From positions 1,240,001 through 1,304,000 of the forward strand of contig JABUFD010000001.1 of NCBI GenBank assembly GCA_013314735.1: a stretch of DNA of 64,000 nt, in the 5' to 3' direction. Both the position numbers and the translations under genes were made by a program. The stretch is from Anaerolineae bacterium. Its GTDB lineage: Bacteria > Chloroflexota > Anaerolineae > Anaerolineales > Anaerolineaceae. Shown piece by piece: positions 38,032 through 47,085 of this stretch. Under the pieces are notes generated by a model that did no database searches, was not told the DNA's origin, and saw only the letters and a list, made by a program, of their open reading frames with translations. The first letter of the stretch is position 1. The number at the start of each line of letters is the position of its first letter.

Positions 38032-39315
38032 CTAATGCCGCCGCCTGTTCGATTTTGGCTGCCGTGACTGACTTTCTCCCGGCAGAAGCACTTCTCGTTC
38101 ATTACTTCGAATGATTGACATGATTTCCGCAGGTGCTTTTTTATCCCGAATCAGGTTGGCCATGATTCGCATTGGTTTATCTACGAAGGCAAAGAATTCC
38201 TGGTATGCCCGGCAAAGATAATTCTGCCCTTCCTCGCCATCGGGAGATCGGCGAATTCGGTTTTTCGGGCACCCACCATTGCAGGCAAACAACCACGGGC
38301 ATTCCCGGCAATACCGGGTTAATGATTCACGCTTATCCATCCCGAACCGGTACTGCTGCCGGTTGAATACCAGATTCGCCAGTCCATCTTCCATAAAGTT
38401 TCCCAGCCGATGGCGGGGCTCTACATAATGATCACAGGAAAAAACATCTCCATTGTGCTCAACCACCAAACCCAACCCACAGGTCGGTTCAAAAACGCAC
38501 AAGCCCGGGCGTTCGCCAACCCATGATGCCAGTGTCGTATCAAAAATTTGAACGAAAACCCGGCCGACATCATTCCGAACCCATTCTGTAAAAACATCGA
38601 TCAGGAAACCTGCATATTGCTGTGGGGTAATTGTCCGGCTTGTAACAGCACCGCCTTCTTGATAACCGGTATTGTTATCTCGCTCAACAATCGGGATGAA
38701 TTGCATGTAACGGATACCCAATTCATCGCGAAAATAACGATAAACATCTCGGCCACGGTCAGCGTTATTCACACTGACGCAAGTTAATACATTGTGCTCA
38801 ACCTGGTGCTCCTGCAAACAGCGTAAACCGCGGATCACATCGTCAAAACTCGGATTTCCCATCTTGTCCACCCGGTAACGATTATGGATTTCTGCGGGGC
38901 CATCGATACTGATACCTACCAAAAAGTTATTCTGATGGAAAAAACGTGCCCATTCGGGTGTTACCAGGGTGCCATTGGTCTGAAAACTATTGACAACGTG
39001 CACGCCAGGGCGTGCATATTTTTTTTGCAGCGCTACAGCCTTCTGGAAAAATGCCAACCCCATCAAAATTGGTTCGCCGCCCTGCCACACAAAATTCACT
39101 TCGGGTACTGCCTGTGCCTCCAGGTATTGCCGCGTGAAATCCTCCAGAACGTCGTCCGTCATCCTGAAAGAGCTTCCAAGGAACAGGTTTTCTTTTGAAA
39201 GGTAATAACAATGGGAACAGTTTAGATTGCAAACCGGCCCACGGGGTTTGACCATCACAGTAAAACCTGGCGGCTGCCAGGCCCTCTCGCTGGGTTTCAA
39301 TAAGAGATCAACCAT
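38032..39315 (-). CDS. Anaerobic sulfatase-maturating-type radical SAM/SPASM enzyme
   Basis: The 427-residue protein has the radical-SAM cluster motif C-x3-C-x2-C in 'CNLNCSHCYYLSK' (about 31-43), 'WQGGEPILMG', 'FQTNGTLV', 'GISIDGP', and a SPASM C-terminal domain with seven or more cysteines ('CVFEPTCG', 'GDVFSCDHYVEP', 'LGNFMEDG', 'CRECPWLFACNGGCPKNR'). This is the anSME pattern: oxidation of a sulfatase Cys or Ser to formylglycine without oxygen. A Cys-type sulfatase lies 3.3 kb away, supporting this role. A TATAAT (plus 39324-39329) ends 8 bases before the ATG, so the mRNA is probably almost leaderless. Peptide maturases of the same superfamily are the alternative. Confidence 0.9.
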   Translation of the reverse strand: MVDLLLKPSERAWQPPGFTVMVKPRGPVCNLNCSHCYYLSKENLFLGSSFRMTDDVLEDFTRQYLEAQAVPEVNFVWQGGEPILMGLAFFQKAVALQKKYARPGVHVVNSFQTNGTLVTPEWARFFHQNNFLVGISIDGPAEIHNRYRVDKMGNPSFDDVIRGLRCLQEHQVEHNVLTCVSVNNADRGRDVYRYFRDELGIRYMQFIPIVERDNNTGYQEGGAVTSRTITPQQYAGFLIDVFTEWVRNDVGRVFVQIFDTTLASWVGERPGLCVFEPTCGLGLVVEHNGDVFSCDHYVEPRHRLGNFMEDGLANLVFNRQQYRFGMDKRESLTRYCRECPWLFACNGGCPKNRIRRSPDGEEGQNYLCRAYQEFFAFVDKPMRIMANLIRDKKAPAEIMSIIRSNEREVLLPGESQSRQPKSNRRRH

Positions 39316-39323
39316 ACCTATTC

Positions 39324-39329
39324 ATTATA
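39324..39329 (-). promoter_or_regulatory. -10 element next to the anSME start codon
   Basis: TATAAT on the minus strand ends 8 bases before the ATG at 39315. Transcription would start one or two bases before the start codon. No -35 match is seen at 16-18 bp. Confidence 0.45.
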
Positions 39330-39441
39330 ACCCAGAGTGTGATGTTATCTATTTTTTTATCATCGGGCCACTATCCATTTAATCATTTTTAAATATATTT
39401 TATATTCTCAGAAATTAAATTCATTATTATTAACTTATTCA

Positions 39442-39469
39442 TTGACATTTTTTATATTTCGCATATAAT
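39442..39469 (+). promoter_or_regulatory. Perfect-consensus sigma-70 promoter for the MFS pair
   Basis: TTGACA (39442-39447) and TATAAT (39464-39469) match the consensus exactly with a 16-bp spacer. They lie in a markedly AT-rich stretch (about 39350-39480), 34 bp upstream of the first MFS gene, whose ATG is preceded by AAAGGA. Confidence 0.85.
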
Positions 39470-39503
39470 CCAATAAAGGAAGAAAATACGAAAGGAAAAG
39501 AAA

Positions 39504-40808
39504 ATGGCATCTCAATTCTCTGAAACTGAAAACCCTCACTGGAGGAGAACATTCTTTCCAATCTGGTCAGGCCAGGCAATCAGCCTGATTGGCAGCCGCC
39601 TGGTCGGTTTTGCGCTGGTCTGGTATCTGACAACCGCAACCGGCTCTGCCACCATTTTGGCAACTGTGTCGTTGATCGGGCTCCTGCCCGAAATGATATT
39701 GGCACCCTTCGCCGGTGCTATGGTGGACCGGTTGAACCGCAAAAAAGTTATGCTCATCGCCGACTCACTCATCGCCCTGATCACCTTGTTTCTCGCCGTT
39801 TTATTCATTTTTGACCTGGTAGAGATCTGGCATATTTATGTTTTGATGTTTATGAGGTCGATTGGCGGTTCATTTCACTACACCGCCATGAGCGCATCGA
39901 CTTCCCTGATGGTGCCTAAAGAAAAGTTCACCAAAATCCAGGGATTAAACCAGGTACTCCACAGTATCCTGACGATCATTGCCGCTCCATTAGGCGCATT
40001 GGCGTTGGAAGTTCTGGAAGTTGGTCACGTCCTGTTCATTGACGTTGTCACAGCTTCTGTTGCCATTCTTCCCTTGATTTTCGTTGCCATTCCCCAACCG
40101 GATGTGACCACCACAGAGGAGGAAAAATCCAATCCAATTCGCACACTGTTCCGCGACGTAGCAGATGGCTTCCGTTACATCTACCATTGGAAAGGCCTCT
40201 TCTATCTGATACTACTGGCTACATTGTTAAATGCGTTGATCAATCCTGCATTCAGCTTGCTCCCCCTATTGGTTAATAAAACATTCGGCCTCGGTGCCCC
40301 TGAACTCGCCACCCTCGAGACAGCACTGGGGATCGGCATGTTGTGCGGTAGTTTGCTGCTTTCGGTTTGGGGTGGTTTTCGGAAGAAAATTATCACCTCC
40401 ACCCTGGGCTTGTTTCTCAATTCGATCGGGATTTTTCTGCTGGGATTGGCGCCATCATCGCAATTCTGGATGGTGATCGCCGGCATCGCATTCTTTGGTT
40501 TGACCAATCCCATCGTGAACGGGCCAATCAATGCGCTATTCCAGGAAACAGTCGATCCAAAAATGCAGGGCCGTGTTTTCGCATTGATCGGGACATTAGC
40601 TTCTGCCATTTCACCGGTTGGTTTAATGATTGCCGGTCCACTAGCTGACCGGTTTGGTGTTCAAGCGTGGTTCCTTGTTGGTGGAATATACATCCTCATC
40701 ATGGTTGGGATTATCCTGGCTTCCCCTGTGATCATGGCAATCGATCAGGGAAGCAATCACCAATCTGCCTTAACAGCATCTCCAGCAGCCACCGTGCCGG
40801 AAAATTAA
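39504..40808 (+). CDS. MFS transporter (first of a tandem pair)
   Basis: The 434-residue protein has about twelve helices. It contains 'FFPIWSGQAISLIGSRLVGFALVWYLTTATGSA' region at the N-terminus, the MFS loop 2-3 motif as 'GAMVDRLNRKKVML' (about 72-85), and 'ETVDPKMQGRVFALIG' in the second half, typical of the MFS_3 / EntS-like multidrug or siderophore exporter group. The substrate is unknown. It is preceded by a very strong promoter and followed 45 bp later by a close paralogue. It lies between the sulfatase maturase and sulfatase genes, so it may move their substrate or product, but an unrelated efflux role is equally possible. Confidence 0.9.
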   Translation: MASQFSETENPHWRRTFFPIWSGQAISLIGSRLVGFALVWYLTTATGSATILATVSLIGLLPEMILAPFAGAMVDRLNRKKVMLIADSLIALITLFLAVLFIFDLVEIWHIYVLMFMRSIGGSFHYTAMSASTSLMVPKEKFTKIQGLNQVLHSILTIIAAPLGALALEVLEVGHVLFIDVVTASVAILPLIFVAIPQPDVTTTEEEKSNPIRTLFRDVADGFRYIYHWKGLFYLILLATLLNALINPAFSLLPLLVNKTFGLGAPELATLETALGIGMLCGSLLLSVWGGFRKKIITSTLGLFLNSIGIFLLGLAPSSQFWMVIAGIAFFGLTNPIVNGPINALFQETVDPKMQGRVFALIGTLASAISPVGLMIAGPLADRFGVQAWFLVGGIYILIMVGIILASPVIMAIDQGSNHQSALTASPAATVPEN

Positions 40809-40853
40809 ATACGGATCTGCAATCTAAACAACAAAGAAAAGGAAAAATTACCA

Positions 40854-42152
40854 ATGGCTACACAATTCTCGGAATCCGAAAATCCACGCTGGCGTAACAC
40901 TTTCTTCCCTGTATGGATCGGCCAGGCCATCAGCCTGGTTGGCAGCCGCCTGGTGGGTTTTTCCCTCGTATGGTACCTGACCACAACCACCGGCTCAGCA
41001 ACCATATTGACCACCATCTCGCTCATCGGCTTATTGCCAGAGATGCTGCTGGCGCCGTTTGCTGGCGCTCTGGTTGACCGCTGGAATCGCAAAAAGGTAA
41101 TGGTTATAGCTGACTCAGCCATCGCCCTGCTCACGCTTGTTCTTGCCGGCTTGTTCCTGTTTGACCTGGTGGAAATCTGGCATATCTATGTTCTGATGTT
41201 TATGCGTTCCATTGGCGGTGCGTTCCACTACCCGGCAATGAGCGCTTCGACCTCATTGATGGTGCCACGGGAAAAATTAACAAAGGTACAGGGAATGAAC
41301 CAGGTACTCCACAGCATCCTTACCATTGTAGCAGCGCCGATGGGCGCTCTCGTTTTGGGCTGGCTGGATGTCGGCCAGGTGATGATGATTGATGTCGTCA
41401 CAGCTGCAATCGCGATATTCATCATTGCCGTGGCGGCCATTCCCCAACCTGCAATCATCACTACCCAGGAGCAGAAGTCCAACCCGGTAAAAACCATGCT
41501 TCTCGATGTCAAGCAGGGATTGCACTATGTAGTCGGCTGGAAAGGATTATTGTATGTACTCATTTTTGCGACCTTTCTCAATGCCATTCTCAACCCGGCG
41601 TTCAGCCTGCTGCCCCTGTTGGTGAAAGGCCATTTTCAACTGGATGTGGGGGCACTGGCCACCATGGAAACAGCCATGGGCATTGGCATGCTGATCGGCA
41701 GTGTGCTGCTTTCAGCCTGGGGAGGATTTAAGAAGAAAATGTACACCTCCTTGATGGGATTGTTTGGTTTGGGAATGGCAGCGTTGTTAATGGGCCTGGC
41801 CCCATCCAACACTTTCTGGATGGCTGTGGTCGGCACCTTCATGTTCGGCCTGGCAAACCCGATCACCAATGGGCCGCTGTTTGCCATTTTCCAGGAAACA
41901 ATCGACCCTGGAATGCAAGGGCGTGTGTTCTCACTGATCAACACCACTGCCATGGCTGCCTCCCCCATCGGCCTGGCAATCGCCGGCCCTCTATCAGACT
42001 CACTTGGCGTGCAAAGCTGGTTCCTCGTAGGTGGCATCTTTTGTGTAACCATGCCGATCCTGCTCTTCTCCAACGCAAAAGTTCGCGATCTGGAAAAAGG
42101 AAATCCCAATGCTGAACAATTCCGTCAGGATGTGGTTGCTGACCCTACATAA
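40854..42152 (+). CDS. MFS transporter (second of a tandem pair)
   Basis: The 432-residue paralogue of the preceding gene matches it over its full length: 'FFPVWIGQAISLVGSRLVGF', 'GALVDRWNRKKVMV', 'ETIDPGMQGRVFSLI' occur at the same places, and the DNA is also visibly similar. It has AAAGGA before the ATG. Tandem MFS pairs sometimes work as heterodimers or differ in substrate. A rho-independent terminator follows at 42185. The direct nucleotide similarity points to a local duplication. Confidence 0.9.
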   Translation: MATQFSESENPRWRNTFFPVWIGQAISLVGSRLVGFSLVWYLTTTTGSATILTTISLIGLLPEMLLAPFAGALVDRWNRKKVMVIADSAIALLTLVLAGLFLFDLVEIWHIYVLMFMRSIGGAFHYPAMSASTSLMVPREKLTKVQGMNQVLHSILTIVAAPMGALVLGWLDVGQVMMIDVVTAAIAIFIIAVAAIPQPAIITTQEQKSNPVKTMLLDVKQGLHYVVGWKGLLYVLIFATFLNAILNPAFSLLPLLVKGHFQLDVGALATMETAMGIGMLIGSVLLSAWGGFKKKMYTSLMGLFGLGMAALLMGLAPSNTFWMAVVGTFMFGLANPITNGPLFAIFQETIDPGMQGRVFSLINTTAMAASPIGLAIAGPLSDSLGVQSWFLVGGIFCVTMPILLFSNAKVRDLEKGNPNAEQFRQDVVADPT

Positions 42153-42184
42153 GGTTCTCATCCATTCAGTGGGTTGGTTTATCG

Positions 42185-42221
42185 AAAGAATGCAAAACCG
42201 GAATCTTTGCATTCTTTTTTT
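42185..42221 (+). terminator. Rho-independent terminator after the MFS pair
   Basis: A perfect 12-bp stem (42185-42196 with 42206-42217), a 9-base loop, and a run of seven T residues ending at 42221 follow the second MFS stop by about 30 bp. Confidence 0.9.
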
Positions 42222-42267
42222 ATAACGCAAGTAGGAATGGTAATCTTAAGCCCCAAGCAACATAGGC

Positions 42268-42642
42268 CTATGGTAAGCTCTCTCCCGACACCAGGTGAAA
42301 ATGAAGTTGTGGAATGTCCTGGTATTGGCCGGTGTTTGTGATTAACCGGTAGCCCCGCCCTTCCAGATGAAATTGTTGGACGAGTTGCGAAACCACCCCC
42401 GGTAATGAAAGCCAATATTGTGAATCCGGTTGCACTTCTGAGAAATCGCGGATTACCTGGCGTGGCAGGATCAGCAGGTGAAATTCATACGATGGATCAG
42501 GATGTTCCAGCACCAACAGTTCATTGGTTTCCATAATTTTTTTCAACGGTAATACCCTCACGATGACCCACCAGAAATACTTGACCAGCAGTCCAAACAT
42601 TCGCAAATGCAATAGATGCCTCACAGCTTGCTTAATGATCAC
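42268..42642 (-). CDS. HIT-family (histidine triad) protein with Gln in the first triad position
   Basis: The 124-residue frame begins at a GTG immediately after the sulfatase stop, with later ATGs at codons 15 and 37 as alternatives. Residues 37-124 match HIT proteins: 'EHPDPSYEFHLLILPR' (about 46-61) and the active-site segment 'QLHFHLVSG' near the C-terminus, in which the H-x-H-x-H triad reads Q-x-H-x-H; the nucleophilic middle His and the last His are kept. The N-terminal ~36 residues are hydrophobic ('FGLLVKYFWWVIVRVL') and may attach it to the membrane. HIT enzymes cleave nucleotidyl phosphoramidates, dinucleotides or adenylyl sulfate; which applies here is unknown. Confidence 0.72.
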   Translation of the reverse strand: MIIKQAVRHLLHLRMFGLLVKYFWWVIVRVLPLKKIMETNELLVLEHPDPSYEFHLLILPRQVIRDFSEVQPDSQYWLSLPGVVSQLVQQFHLEGRGYRLITNTGQYQDIPQLHFHLVSGESLP

Positions 42643-44040
42643 TTAATTCTCCAGAATTGTTCGGCGATCAGCTTCAACACTAGCAAACCATTGTTCCAGG
42701 TGCGCAGTCAATGTGCTGACAACGTTCGGAAACCGCATCGCCAGGTTTGTTGTTTCCAAAGGATCCTCCCGCAGGTTGTACAACTCTGGTTGTGGAGGCG
42801 TTGGAACCGTTCGGTCAGGATCTGTTCGGAAAATGTCGTTTTCAAGGAAATATTCGTACTGATACATGGAAACCCTCAGCCACTCGATATCAGGAACCTG
42901 CATTGCCTCCTGAATCGCTGGCCGTACCAGTTTCCAATCTCCATCACGTACTGCCGCATTACACTCAACCAACGGTGTATATCGATTCCATTGCCAGAAC
43001 CGCCGCGGATTCTCTGCAGATTTCTGACCGGAGATCGCAGGAAACAAATTGATCCCATCAATCATTCGACCGTCCAGGTAATCGGGCATCGGCACATTCG
43101 CCATTGCAAGCAATGTCGGAAACCAATCTGTAAAATGCGCGTTCTCATTAAAGGTGGTACCACCCCCCAACCCACCCGCCAGCCACGACAATAAAAGCGG
43201 AACACGAATCCCCCCTTCATAAACGGTTCCCTTTGCGCCATGGAATTGGCAATTGAAGCGGTCTTTTGACCACTCCCCGTCGCTGCTTAAGTCCGGCCCA
43301 TTGTCACTGGTGAAGATCAGGATCGTGTTCTCACGGAATCCGCTCTTTTCCAATGACTCAATGATCCGTTGAATTCCACGGTCCATTCGTTCTATCATTG
43401 CATACACATGGGCGGCGCCGTTGGACAGTCCTGGTATCGCGAGGTACGGTTGAAGCATCTCTTCGGGTACCTGCAAGGGAGTATGCGGTGCATTATAAGT
43501 CACATGCAGGAAGAAAGGCTGTTCCTGACTTTGCCGTTCGATAAAAGAAACCGCCTCCTCTGTCCAGACATCAGTCAGGTATCGGCCATCACCACGGACT
43601 GGGCGGTCATTGTACTCGATTCGCCAATCATAATAATCATGCATCCCACCGCGAAAACAAACAGCTTCATCAAATCCACGCCGGGTTGGCGAATAGCGTG
43701 GGTCAAAACTGCCCAAATGCCATTTTCCGACCAACCCCGTTCGATATCCTGCCTGCTGGAGAACATCAGCCAGGGTGACCTCACGCAAAGCCAGCCGTTC
43801 CAGCCCGTGCCATTCGAGGGTGTCAATGGAACCGGTTCGGTGTGGGTACCGACCAGTCAATAATGCCGCTCGTGATGGATTGCACACGGGCGAAGCAGTG
43901 TATTGGTGGGTAAAACAAATACTTTCACCAGCCAGATTGTCCAGTGCAGGGGTGCAATGAATGTTGGGGTGAAACATACCAAAATCACCGTACCCCATGT
44001 CATCCGCAAGGATGAAAACGATATTTGGTTTATGCGGCAT
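42643..44040 (-). CDS. Cys-type sulfatase without signal peptide
   Basis: The 465-residue protein begins directly with the catalytic fold: 'NIVFILADDMGYGD' (6-19, the Asp13-Asp14 metal ligands), then the modification motif 'CNPSRAALLTGR' at 53-64 (C-x-P-S-R, where Cys53 would become formylglycine), 'GLVGKWHLG' (about 107-115) and 'FTSDNGPD' near 245. It belongs to the arylsulfatase/alkaline phosphatase superfamily. No signal peptide or lipobox is present, so it should be cytoplasmic, unlike most polysaccharide sulfatases. It lies between a histidine phosphatase and a HIT gene on the same strand, and the likely maturase is 3.3 kb away. The substrate is unknown. Confidence 0.92.
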   Translation of the reverse strand: MPHKPNIVFILADDMGYGDFGMFHPNIHCTPALDNLAGESICFTHQYTASPVCNPSRAALLTGRYPHRTGSIDTLEWHGLERLALREVTLADVLQQAGYRTGLVGKWHLGSFDPRYSPTRRGFDEAVCFRGGMHDYYDWRIEYNDRPVRGDGRYLTDVWTEEAVSFIERQSQEQPFFLHVTYNAPHTPLQVPEEMLQPYLAIPGLSNGAAHVYAMIERMDRGIQRIIESLEKSGFRENTILIFTSDNGPDLSSDGEWSKDRFNCQFHGAKGTVYEGGIRVPLLLSWLAGGLGGGTTFNENAHFTDWFPTLLAMANVPMPDYLDGRMIDGINLFPAISGQKSAENPRRFWQWNRYTPLVECNAAVRDGDWKLVRPAIQEAMQVPDIEWLRVSMYQYEYFLENDIFRTDPDRTVPTPPQPELYNLREDPLETTNLAMRFPNVVSTLTAHLEQWFASVEADRRTILEN

Positions 44041-44065
44041 ACGGTTTAACAGGATCCATTTGGGT

Positions 44066-44656
44066 TTAAAACAACCGGTTCATCGAGACCAGAACACCAA
44101 TCTCATCACCCACAATCCTGAGGACACTTACAGAACCGGGATAAATTTTTAATCGGTTGGCATTGCCCGGTTCCATTCCCAAAAAATGGGCGATGGCGAA
44201 ACGGATCACGCTACCATGGCTGACTGCAATCACCATCTGATCTCCCGGATGTTGGGCAGCAATTTGCATCAAACCAGATGAAACACGCTGGACAACATCG
44301 GATACCTTCTCACCGCCCGGGATCTGACCACCAGGCTCGTTAACGTAGCGCCGCCATTCAGGGTCCTGTTGCAATTCCCAAAACGGTTTTTTTTCCCAAT
44401 CACCATAATCGACCTGGATTAATTCCGGCATCGACCTCACAGTTAACCGTAATCGATCCGCGAGGGGTTCAGCTGTCTGCATCGTTCGCAACAAAGGAGA
44501 TGAATACACCCCCTTGATCGGTTGTCCCGACAAGGTGACAGCCAGCTCCTGGGCGCGTTGCCGTCCTTTCTCATTTAGCGGTGTGTCAATCCGTCCTGCC
44601 AGCTGATTATCCACATCATTGGTTGTACTATGCCGCATTAATAAAATTTCTGTCAT
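44066..44656 (-). CDS. Histidine phosphatase superfamily protein
   Basis: The 196-residue protein has the phosphohistidine motif at the N-terminus as 'LMRHSTTND' (His9; RHS-T rather than RHG-T), 'LNEKGRQRAQELA', 'SSPLLRTMQTAEPLA', and the second catalytic His in 'VIAVSHGSVIR' (about 153). It is like cobalamin-phosphatase/phosphoglycerate-mutase-type proteins (GpmB/CobC group). The Glu usually before the 'GDWE' segment is replaced by Gln ('LIQVDYGDWE'), which may alter catalysis. It lies 25 bp upstream of the sulfatase and probably heads that transcript. Confidence 0.87.
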   Translation of the reverse strand: MTEILLMRHSTTNDVDNQLAGRIDTPLNEKGRQRAQELAVTLSGQPIKGVYSSPLLRTMQTAEPLADRLRLTVRSMPELIQVDYGDWEKKPFWELQQDPEWRRYVNEPGGQIPGGEKVSDVVQRVSSGLMQIAAQHPGDQMVIAVSHGSVIRFAIAHFLGMEPGNANRLKIYPGSVSVLRIVGDEIGVLVSMNRLF

Positions 44657-45801: not shown

Positions 45802-47085
45802 ATGAACATCAAGCATGCATTGCGCCAACTTGGAATTATCCTTTTCCTGGCAATTACACTGGCAACAACTGTCACGCAGAGCGCGGTCGATATGAATTCC
45901 GCACTCGAGCAGGTTCGGGCATTTTCACGCCCTTTTGAATTCGACTTTTGGGGTTGGACATTTGAGGCAGTATGGCACAAATTCCAGCAGGAATCGGTCA
46001 ACCTTCCGGCATATCTCGCTCCTGAAAACCAGAAGCAGGTTATCCTTGCTTACCTTGACCAGACCCGACAAGTACAAACCCTCGAATCAGCAATCCAATT
46101 GATCTTCTCCAATCCGGATATCCCAGACCCGGAACGGGAAAGCGCACCGCTGCAACGCCAGTTGAGAGAGATAAACACCAACGTAGAGAATCTACAACCC
46201 ATCGCAGAAAGCATACTGCAGCGGCAAGTATCTCAAATATTAGCGGATGAGAATCTGTCGGTACTTGGGCAGGTGCTTCCGCCGGTACTTTTCCAGTCTT
46301 CACCACTTCCGAAAGCGCTTATTGTTTCACCGCGGGATGTTATCCGCCAGGATGCAAACCTCAGCCTGAACCCCGAGTTACAACTGGATGAAATCATCAC
46401 AACAGAACTGGTAATAGCTGACAACCTGAATGTATCCACACTGATTACCAACATCGGCGGAGTGGGTACGTATCCGACTATGATCAACCGCACATCCGAC
46501 ATCACATGGTTGACTGGTGTTGTCAGCCACGAATGGACGCACAATTTTCTCACCTTGCGGCCACTGGGATGGAATTACAATACCAATAATGATCTGCGCA
46601 CAATGAATGAAACTGCAGCATCCATCATTGAAGAAGAATTGAAATGGAAAATTATTGAGCGTTATTATCCGCAATTCCTCCCACAACCTTCTTCAGGCCA
46701 GGTTTCTACAGAAAATGAACAGCCAGACATACCAGTCTTTAATTTTGATTTCGAGATGTATGTTACCCGCACCCGGACCGATGAATTGCTGGCAGCTGGC
46801 GATATTGCCCAGGCAGAAGCCTACATGGAAGAGAGGCGTACTTTTTTCTACCAGAACGGTTATGTTATTCGAAGGTTGAACCAGGCCTGGTTTGCTTTTC
46901 ATTCTGCCTATGTCAATGCACCCAGTACAGGCAATGAAGGCCAGACCGGAGCCGCAGGAACAGATCCCGTCGGTCCTGCTGTCTGGCAGTTGTATGAACG
47001 ATCTGCCACCCTTGCCAATTTCCTGAATAGGATCTCCTGGATGACCTCCTTCGCATCTTTGCAGGAAGCTCTTAAAAACGAATAA
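45802..47085 (+). CDS. Putative zinc metalloprotease (gluzincin-like), exported
   Basis: I know no named family for this 427-residue protein. An N-terminal hydrophobic helix (about 8-28) is probably a signal peptide or anchor. The middle contains 'VVSHEWTHNFL' (HExxH, about 249), and 'MNETAASIIEEEL' follows about 30 residues later, giving a His-Glu-x-x-His...Glu set like gluzincins. Upstream are helical segments with 'QILADENLSVLGQVLPPVLFQ'. A zinc peptidase outside the cytoplasm is the likeliest reading. The gene has a -10 element 6 bases before the ATG and no ribosome-binding site. glpK follows 60 bp later but has its own -10-like TATAAT (47104). Confidence 0.78.
   Translation: MNIKHALRQLGIILFLAITLATTVTQSAVDMNSALEQVRAFSRPFEFDFWGWTFEAVWHKFQQESVNLPAYLAPENQKQVILAYLDQTRQVQTLESAIQLIFSNPDIPDPERESAPLQRQLREINTNVENLQPIAESILQRQVSQILADENLSVLGQVLPPVLFQSSPLPKALIVSPRDVIRQDANLSLNPELQLDEIITTELVIADNLNVSTLITNIGGVGTYPTMINRTSDITWLTGVVSHEWTHNFLTLRPLGWNYNTNNDLRTMNETAASIIEEELKWKIIERYYPQFLPQPSSGQVSTENEQPDIPVFNFDFEMYVTRTRTDELLAAGDIAQAEAYMEERRTFFYQNGYVIRRLNQAWFAFHSAYVNAPSTGNEGQTGAAGTDPVGPAVWQLYERSATLANFLNRISWMTSFASLQEALKNE

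Follow-up and report, generated by a model that had tools for sequence, protein, structure and literature searches.

A leaderless Cys-type S1 sulfatase of an Anaerolineae bacterium: probable horizontal acquisition into a pre-existing gene neighbourhood

The window analysed in this work, a stretch of 64,000 nucleotides from an Anaerolineae bacterium, encodes a Cys-type S1 sulfatase without a signal peptide, and the genes surrounding it probably do not form a functional module. The explanation which we favour, and in which we place considerable confidence, is that a cytosolic carbohydrate sulfatase was acquired horizontally into a pre-existing neighbourhood, where it is activated by a shared anaerobic sulfatase maturase (anSME). 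The gene lies between those for a histidine phosphatase (HisP) and a HIT-domain protein, and is probably read together with these two genes as one transcript. Cys53 of its product would be converted to formylglycine (FGly) by the single anSME detected in the genome, which is encoded 3.3 kb away, and the mature enzyme would then act in the cytosol on a small imported compound and hydrolyse its sulfate ester; this compound is most likely a mono- or oligosaccharide carrying sulfate, possibly one of the fucose type. The two MFS genes of the locus would represent a duplicated Mef-like antiporter of the exporter type with no demonstrated link to the sulfatase. An earlier note on this DNA had instead taken six of these genes as a candidate module, one reading of which was uptake of a small sulfated compound, desulfation and export of the product. 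In the form in which this module is weighed here, transport of the compound or of what is made from it falls to the MFS proteins and activation of the sulfatase to the anSME, and the HIT protein and HisP work on the desulfated product.

All six genes are located where the earlier note had placed them, and their identities hold. The anSME gene (38032-39315, minus strand) encodes a radical SAM/SPASM anaerobic sulfatase maturase of 427 aa, which scores 481.9 bits against TIGR03942 (cut-off 349.45). On the plus strand, a sigma-70 consensus TTGACA-16-TATAAT (39442-39469; 12/12 positions, a consensus match only) lies 5' of MFS1 (39504-40808), a Mef-like H+ antiporter, and this is followed by its tandem paralogue MFS2 (40854-42152), the proteins both matching MFS_1. 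The remaining three genes are on the minus strand, viz. the HIT-domain protein with a GTG start (42268-42642; PF01230, 44.6 bits), the leaderless sulfatase of 465 aa (42643-44040; PF00884, 210.7 bits), and HisP, a CobC/GpmB-like histidine phosphatase of branch 1 (44066-44656; PF00300, 166.9 bits), which is the first gene of the HisP-sulfatase-HIT run. The six genes are not a single operon and make up at least three transcription units, consisting of anSME (minus), MFS1-MFS2 (plus) and HisP-sulfatase-HIT (minus), with the MFS pair convergent to the last of these and divergent from anSME. Because the stop codon of the sulfatase abuts the GTG of HIT (TAAGTG in the sequence) and HisP is only 25 bp upstream of the sulfatase, it is plausible that these three genes share one transcript. 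In the HIT protein and in its relatives at the loci L192, L193 and L201, the sequences QLHFH, LLHLH or QLHWH are found in place of the HIT triad HxHxH, so that the first His is gone; another relative (L194) reads HLHFH at this position.

The signature, the residues and the fold of the sulfatase all identify it as a genuine FGly-type S1 enzyme, as had been proposed. Its Cys53 is located within the sequence CNPSR, and in an alignment of 55 orthologues Cys53, Pro55 and Arg57 are invariant, as are all ten canonical catalytic and metal positions (D13, D14, C53, R57, K106, H108, H186, D246, N247 and K270). In S1 sulfatases generally, this set of D, D, R, K, H, H, D, N and K residues has metal- and sulfate-binding roles. 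In the structures 6b0j and 6b0k, the position aligning with Cys53 is Ser. The AF2 model (pLDDT 94.0) has the alkaline-phosphatase-type sulfatase fold, and the nearest solved structures, both by sequence and by fold, are the S1_19 and S1_16 carrageenan sulfatases, which are the best Foldseek matches (E ~1e-38 to S1_19). These enzymes (PDB 6prm, 6bia, 9hh3 and 9fo1) share with the window protein the fold (TM ~0.8), the CxPSR signature and the catalytic residues. However, the identity to them in the Foldseek alignments is 29-32%, and the window enzyme lacks a signal peptide and was given no subfamily number; no close solved relative of its subfamily was found. Choline sulfatase (BetC, S1_12) and the arylsulfatase of P. 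aeruginosa (PAS), which are cytosolic, resemble what is proposed here in being leaderless FGly sulfatases that act on an imported small molecule. However, the score of the window protein against the choline sulfatase model is just 129.5 bits (cut-off 433), and other structures are closer to it. The earlier note had stated that its reading would fall if the protein were a phosphonate monoester hydrolase or phosphatase. Enzymes of the S1_0 type have the FGly signature too (PMC5066984), and if the window protein were a phosphonate monoester hydrolase or phosphodiesterase of this type, and no sulfatase, then both this signature and a weak match to PehA would be accounted for. However, similarity at the PehA/PMH level was not found, as the PehA match of 77 bits (cut-off 900) ranks under those to arylsulfatase and choline sulfatase, and among solved structures those of carbohydrate or aryl sulfatases are closest. 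Further, the invariance among the 55 orthologues of all ten catalytic and metal positions, including K106 and H108 of GKWH, H186 and K270, argues against this alternative, which we regard as extremely unlikely.

The absence of a signal peptide from the sulfatase is confirmed, and the leaderless state is common to the orthologous subfamily. The N-terminus of the protein reads MPHKPNIVF, and the start is thus 4 residues before the conserved PNI, leaving no room for a signal peptide. To the 80 loci from a scan of genome contigs, a class-wide scan added more, and 86 loci, in which some genomes are counted twice, encode relatives at 44-64% identity over at least 400 aligned columns. In 63 of these 86 orthologues no in-frame start lies at least 15 codons upstream of the one used, and among the other 23 only five reach a hydropathy >2 that could suggest a signal, viz. 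that at L140 and those at four acidobacterial loci, nearly identical to one another, in which the extension is 116 codons long. Because the subfamily as a whole is leaderless, it is sound to infer that the enzyme is cytosolic, and the intracellular target envisaged earlier is supported in the same manner by the missing leader in the window protein and its subfamily. However, the contrast that had been drawn with typical sulfated-polysaccharide systems is weaker than claimed; the enzyme is indeed leaderless, but the genome's remaining 14 S1 sulfatases likewise begin near the first strand (in two of them the called start is longer, but an internal Met immediately precedes that strand). For Kiritimatiellales, the combination of a single anSME with numerous sulfatases predicted to be cytoplasmic has already been described (PMC6388578).

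The sole same-genus genome available (G001, 69% complete) contains an empty site for the sulfatase gene. Its contig C186 (L192) shares synteny with the window and carries p8, ABH, HisP and HIT followed by a convergent MFS gene, with no sulfatase: the HisP stop is at 2389, the HIT reading frame extends from 2393 to 2809, and nothing lies between. The window differs from this locus by the sulfatase between HisP and HIT and by a second MFS copy; the relative has a single syntenic MFS homologue before the contig ends, 128 bp past this gene and before the place expected for anSME. Since HisP, HIT and MFS occur here in the same order without the sulfatase, they are most likely pre-existing neighbours among which the sulfatase was inserted. 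A single genome shows the empty site, and a loss of the sulfatase in the lineage of G001 could also give rise to it; however, a gain by the window lineage is the simpler reading of the direction of change. Acquisition from outside is also consistent with the distribution of the relatives. Across the searched genomes of the family, the best match to the sulfatase besides the enzyme itself is 44% over part of its length, and closer relatives come from different families of the class and from different phyla. In a quick tree, the window sulfatase joins that of a Chloroflexi MAG (SH-aLRT 91, not starred), and the two are nested in a starred set of 13, which are mainly from Verrucomicrobiota. Judged from these sequences, the subfamily is patchily distributed across many phyla, and the window gene was most likely acquired horizontally. 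One of the syntenic genes is p8 (45802-47085, plus strand), the product of which contains the motif HEWTH and gave no match to Pfam or NCBIfam. Its homologues in L192 and L199 show 44-46% identity, the one in L199 being ~2.4 kb from an anSME gene, and p8 possibly represents an undescribed metalloprotease-like family.

The reading of the six genes as a module draws on their adjacency, on the leaderless state of the sulfatase, on the strong promoter-like site before the MFS genes, and on a relative (G008) where three sulfatase genes, an anSME gene and an MFS-like gene stand in one run, although that locus has no match to the window MFS proteins. However, when conservation as a unit was checked, the partners were found at none of the ~92 orthologue loci. 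In tblastn searches of the window anSME, MFS, HIT, HisP and ABH proteins, no match at E 1e-8 was obtained at these loci or at six more distant ones, the flanks searched extending up to 10 kb on each side and often less, as some contigs are short. The earlier note had itself stated that the module would fall if the genes did not co-occur elsewhere, and within these flanks they do not. Further, the same-genus relative keeps HisP-HIT-MFS without the sulfatase, the MFS family is Mef-like, and homologues of HisP (38/41 relatives) and MFS (32/41, most without this sulfatase) are widespread in relatives lacking it. The neighbours of the orthologues, as grouped by clustering and a Pfam scan, are mostly other sulfatases (14/74) and scattered metabolic genes, and no common theme was found among the neighbours of the genome's other sulfatases. 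The module is thus strongly disfavoured and appears very unlikely; the window would contain an ordinary enzyme that has come to lie among its neighbours by chance, with no new pathway. This removes a tempting operon reading and puts in its place one that can be tested, that of a patchily spread subfamily of cytosolic sulfatases.

The MFS proteins lend no support to uptake of the compound by them. Both score best against TIGR00900 and the Mef macrolide exporters, so that their nearest group is that of the Mef/2A0121 H+ antiporters, an exporter-type family. However, they remain under every curated cut-off (for MFS1, 272 bits against 319.6 for TIGR00900 and 270.6 against 675 for MefA), and they are therefore Mef-like and should not be called Mef. 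MFS1 and MFS2, which are 66% identical and 45 bp apart, constitute a tandem duplicate. Each of them had been described as having a strong promoter; the perfect consensus is present before MFS1, but none was found before MFS2, and with the two genes so close together the one upstream of MFS1 presumably serves both. Over the region, the number of promoter-like sites is not above that in shuffles. We judge the MFS genes to be old neighbours that are no part of a sulfatase system.

The best clue to the substrate of the subfamily comes from outside the window, from an operon in Devosia sp. 67-54 (L154). Here, the sulfatase orthologue is preceded by genes for a GntR regulator, a binding protein of the sugar type and two permeases, and is followed by one for a member of the enolase superfamily, which matches structures of L-fuconate dehydratase (E ~1e-171; no NCBIfam model named it above cut-off), while a GH29 fucosidase gene adjoins the operon on the opposite strand. 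An orthologue from a spirochaete (L105) is likewise found after ABC importer genes and before an AraC-type regulator, and ABC parts are also near the orthologues at L084 and L155. However, a GH29 match is nearby in only 3 of roughly 90 orthologue loci, and fucose genes were accordingly rejected as a general companion of the orthologues. The genome studied here has about eight GH29 fucosidase genes of its own, and no fucose or importer genes adjoin the sulfatase in the window. The window enzyme is ~51% identical to that of Devosia, a protein that the tree places uncertainly owing to its long branch, and the clue may carry over to the window enzyme; its substrate is probably an imported sulfated sugar, a sugar of the fucose type being a guess. 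We also propose, tentatively and with more doubt than confidence, that this many-phylum leaderless S1 subfamily is dedicated to the cytosolic desulfation of an imported monosaccharide sulfate (e.g. fucose sulfate), feeding non-phosphorylative sugar-acid pathways. In the literature, no paper was found that connects fucose with a leaderless S1 sulfatase from Chloroflexi. If the substrate is an ABC-imported sulfated sugar, then the way in which Chloroflexota and other phyla use sulfated glycans would gain a cytosolic desulfation step.

The claim that the maturase is a genuine anSME holds: besides scoring above the cut-off of the TIGR03942 equivalog, it contains radical SAM and SPASM domains (PF04055 and PF13186) and matches the anSME of PDB 4k36 (E=2e-68), likewise a TIGR03942 equivalog, over nearly its full length. 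The genome has one anSME match and 15 S1 sulfatases (PF00884), a sixteenth match being left out of this count as weak (26.9 bits); hence, the single anSME detected most likely acts in trans on every Cys-type sulfatase that the genome encodes. Most of the sulfatases on which it is likely to act are encoded elsewhere, a situation also found in Kiritimatiellales, where hundreds of sulfatases are accompanied by one anSME (PMC6388578). About ten proteins with FGE domains are also encoded, e.g. at L055-L062, mostly in open frames of 600-980 aa, and they are probably fusions to other domains. A regular expression for the FGE active-site cysteine motif found none in the eight of these loci checked, and an O2-dependent FGE as a second maturase is thus disfavoured, though conceivable. 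If the sulfatase and anSME alone were a functional pair, the latter a dedicated maturase and the intervening genes incidental, then it could be understood why anSME adjoins sulfatases in three relatives (L052, L198 and L200) and why the five of 41 genomes with an anSME above cut-off all have sulfatase matches. However, one anSME faces 15 sulfatases here, no orthologue of the window sulfatase has an anSME in the flanks searched, and the 18 kb read around the anSME of a fourth relative (G031, L199) contains no homologue of this sulfatase. A dedicated pair is therefore disfavoured and seems unlikely, and we retain the shared anSME; because of the arrangement in the three relatives, its nearness to the sulfatase may not be pure accident. 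In one of them, G008 (L052, 8154-15504), the genes are, in order, an MFS-like gene, a sulfatase, the anSME, a second sulfatase and a third with a Tat-like leader (RRNFLKS), and this run, situated downstream of ABC sugar importer-like genes, is a more convincing sulfatase cluster than that of the window.
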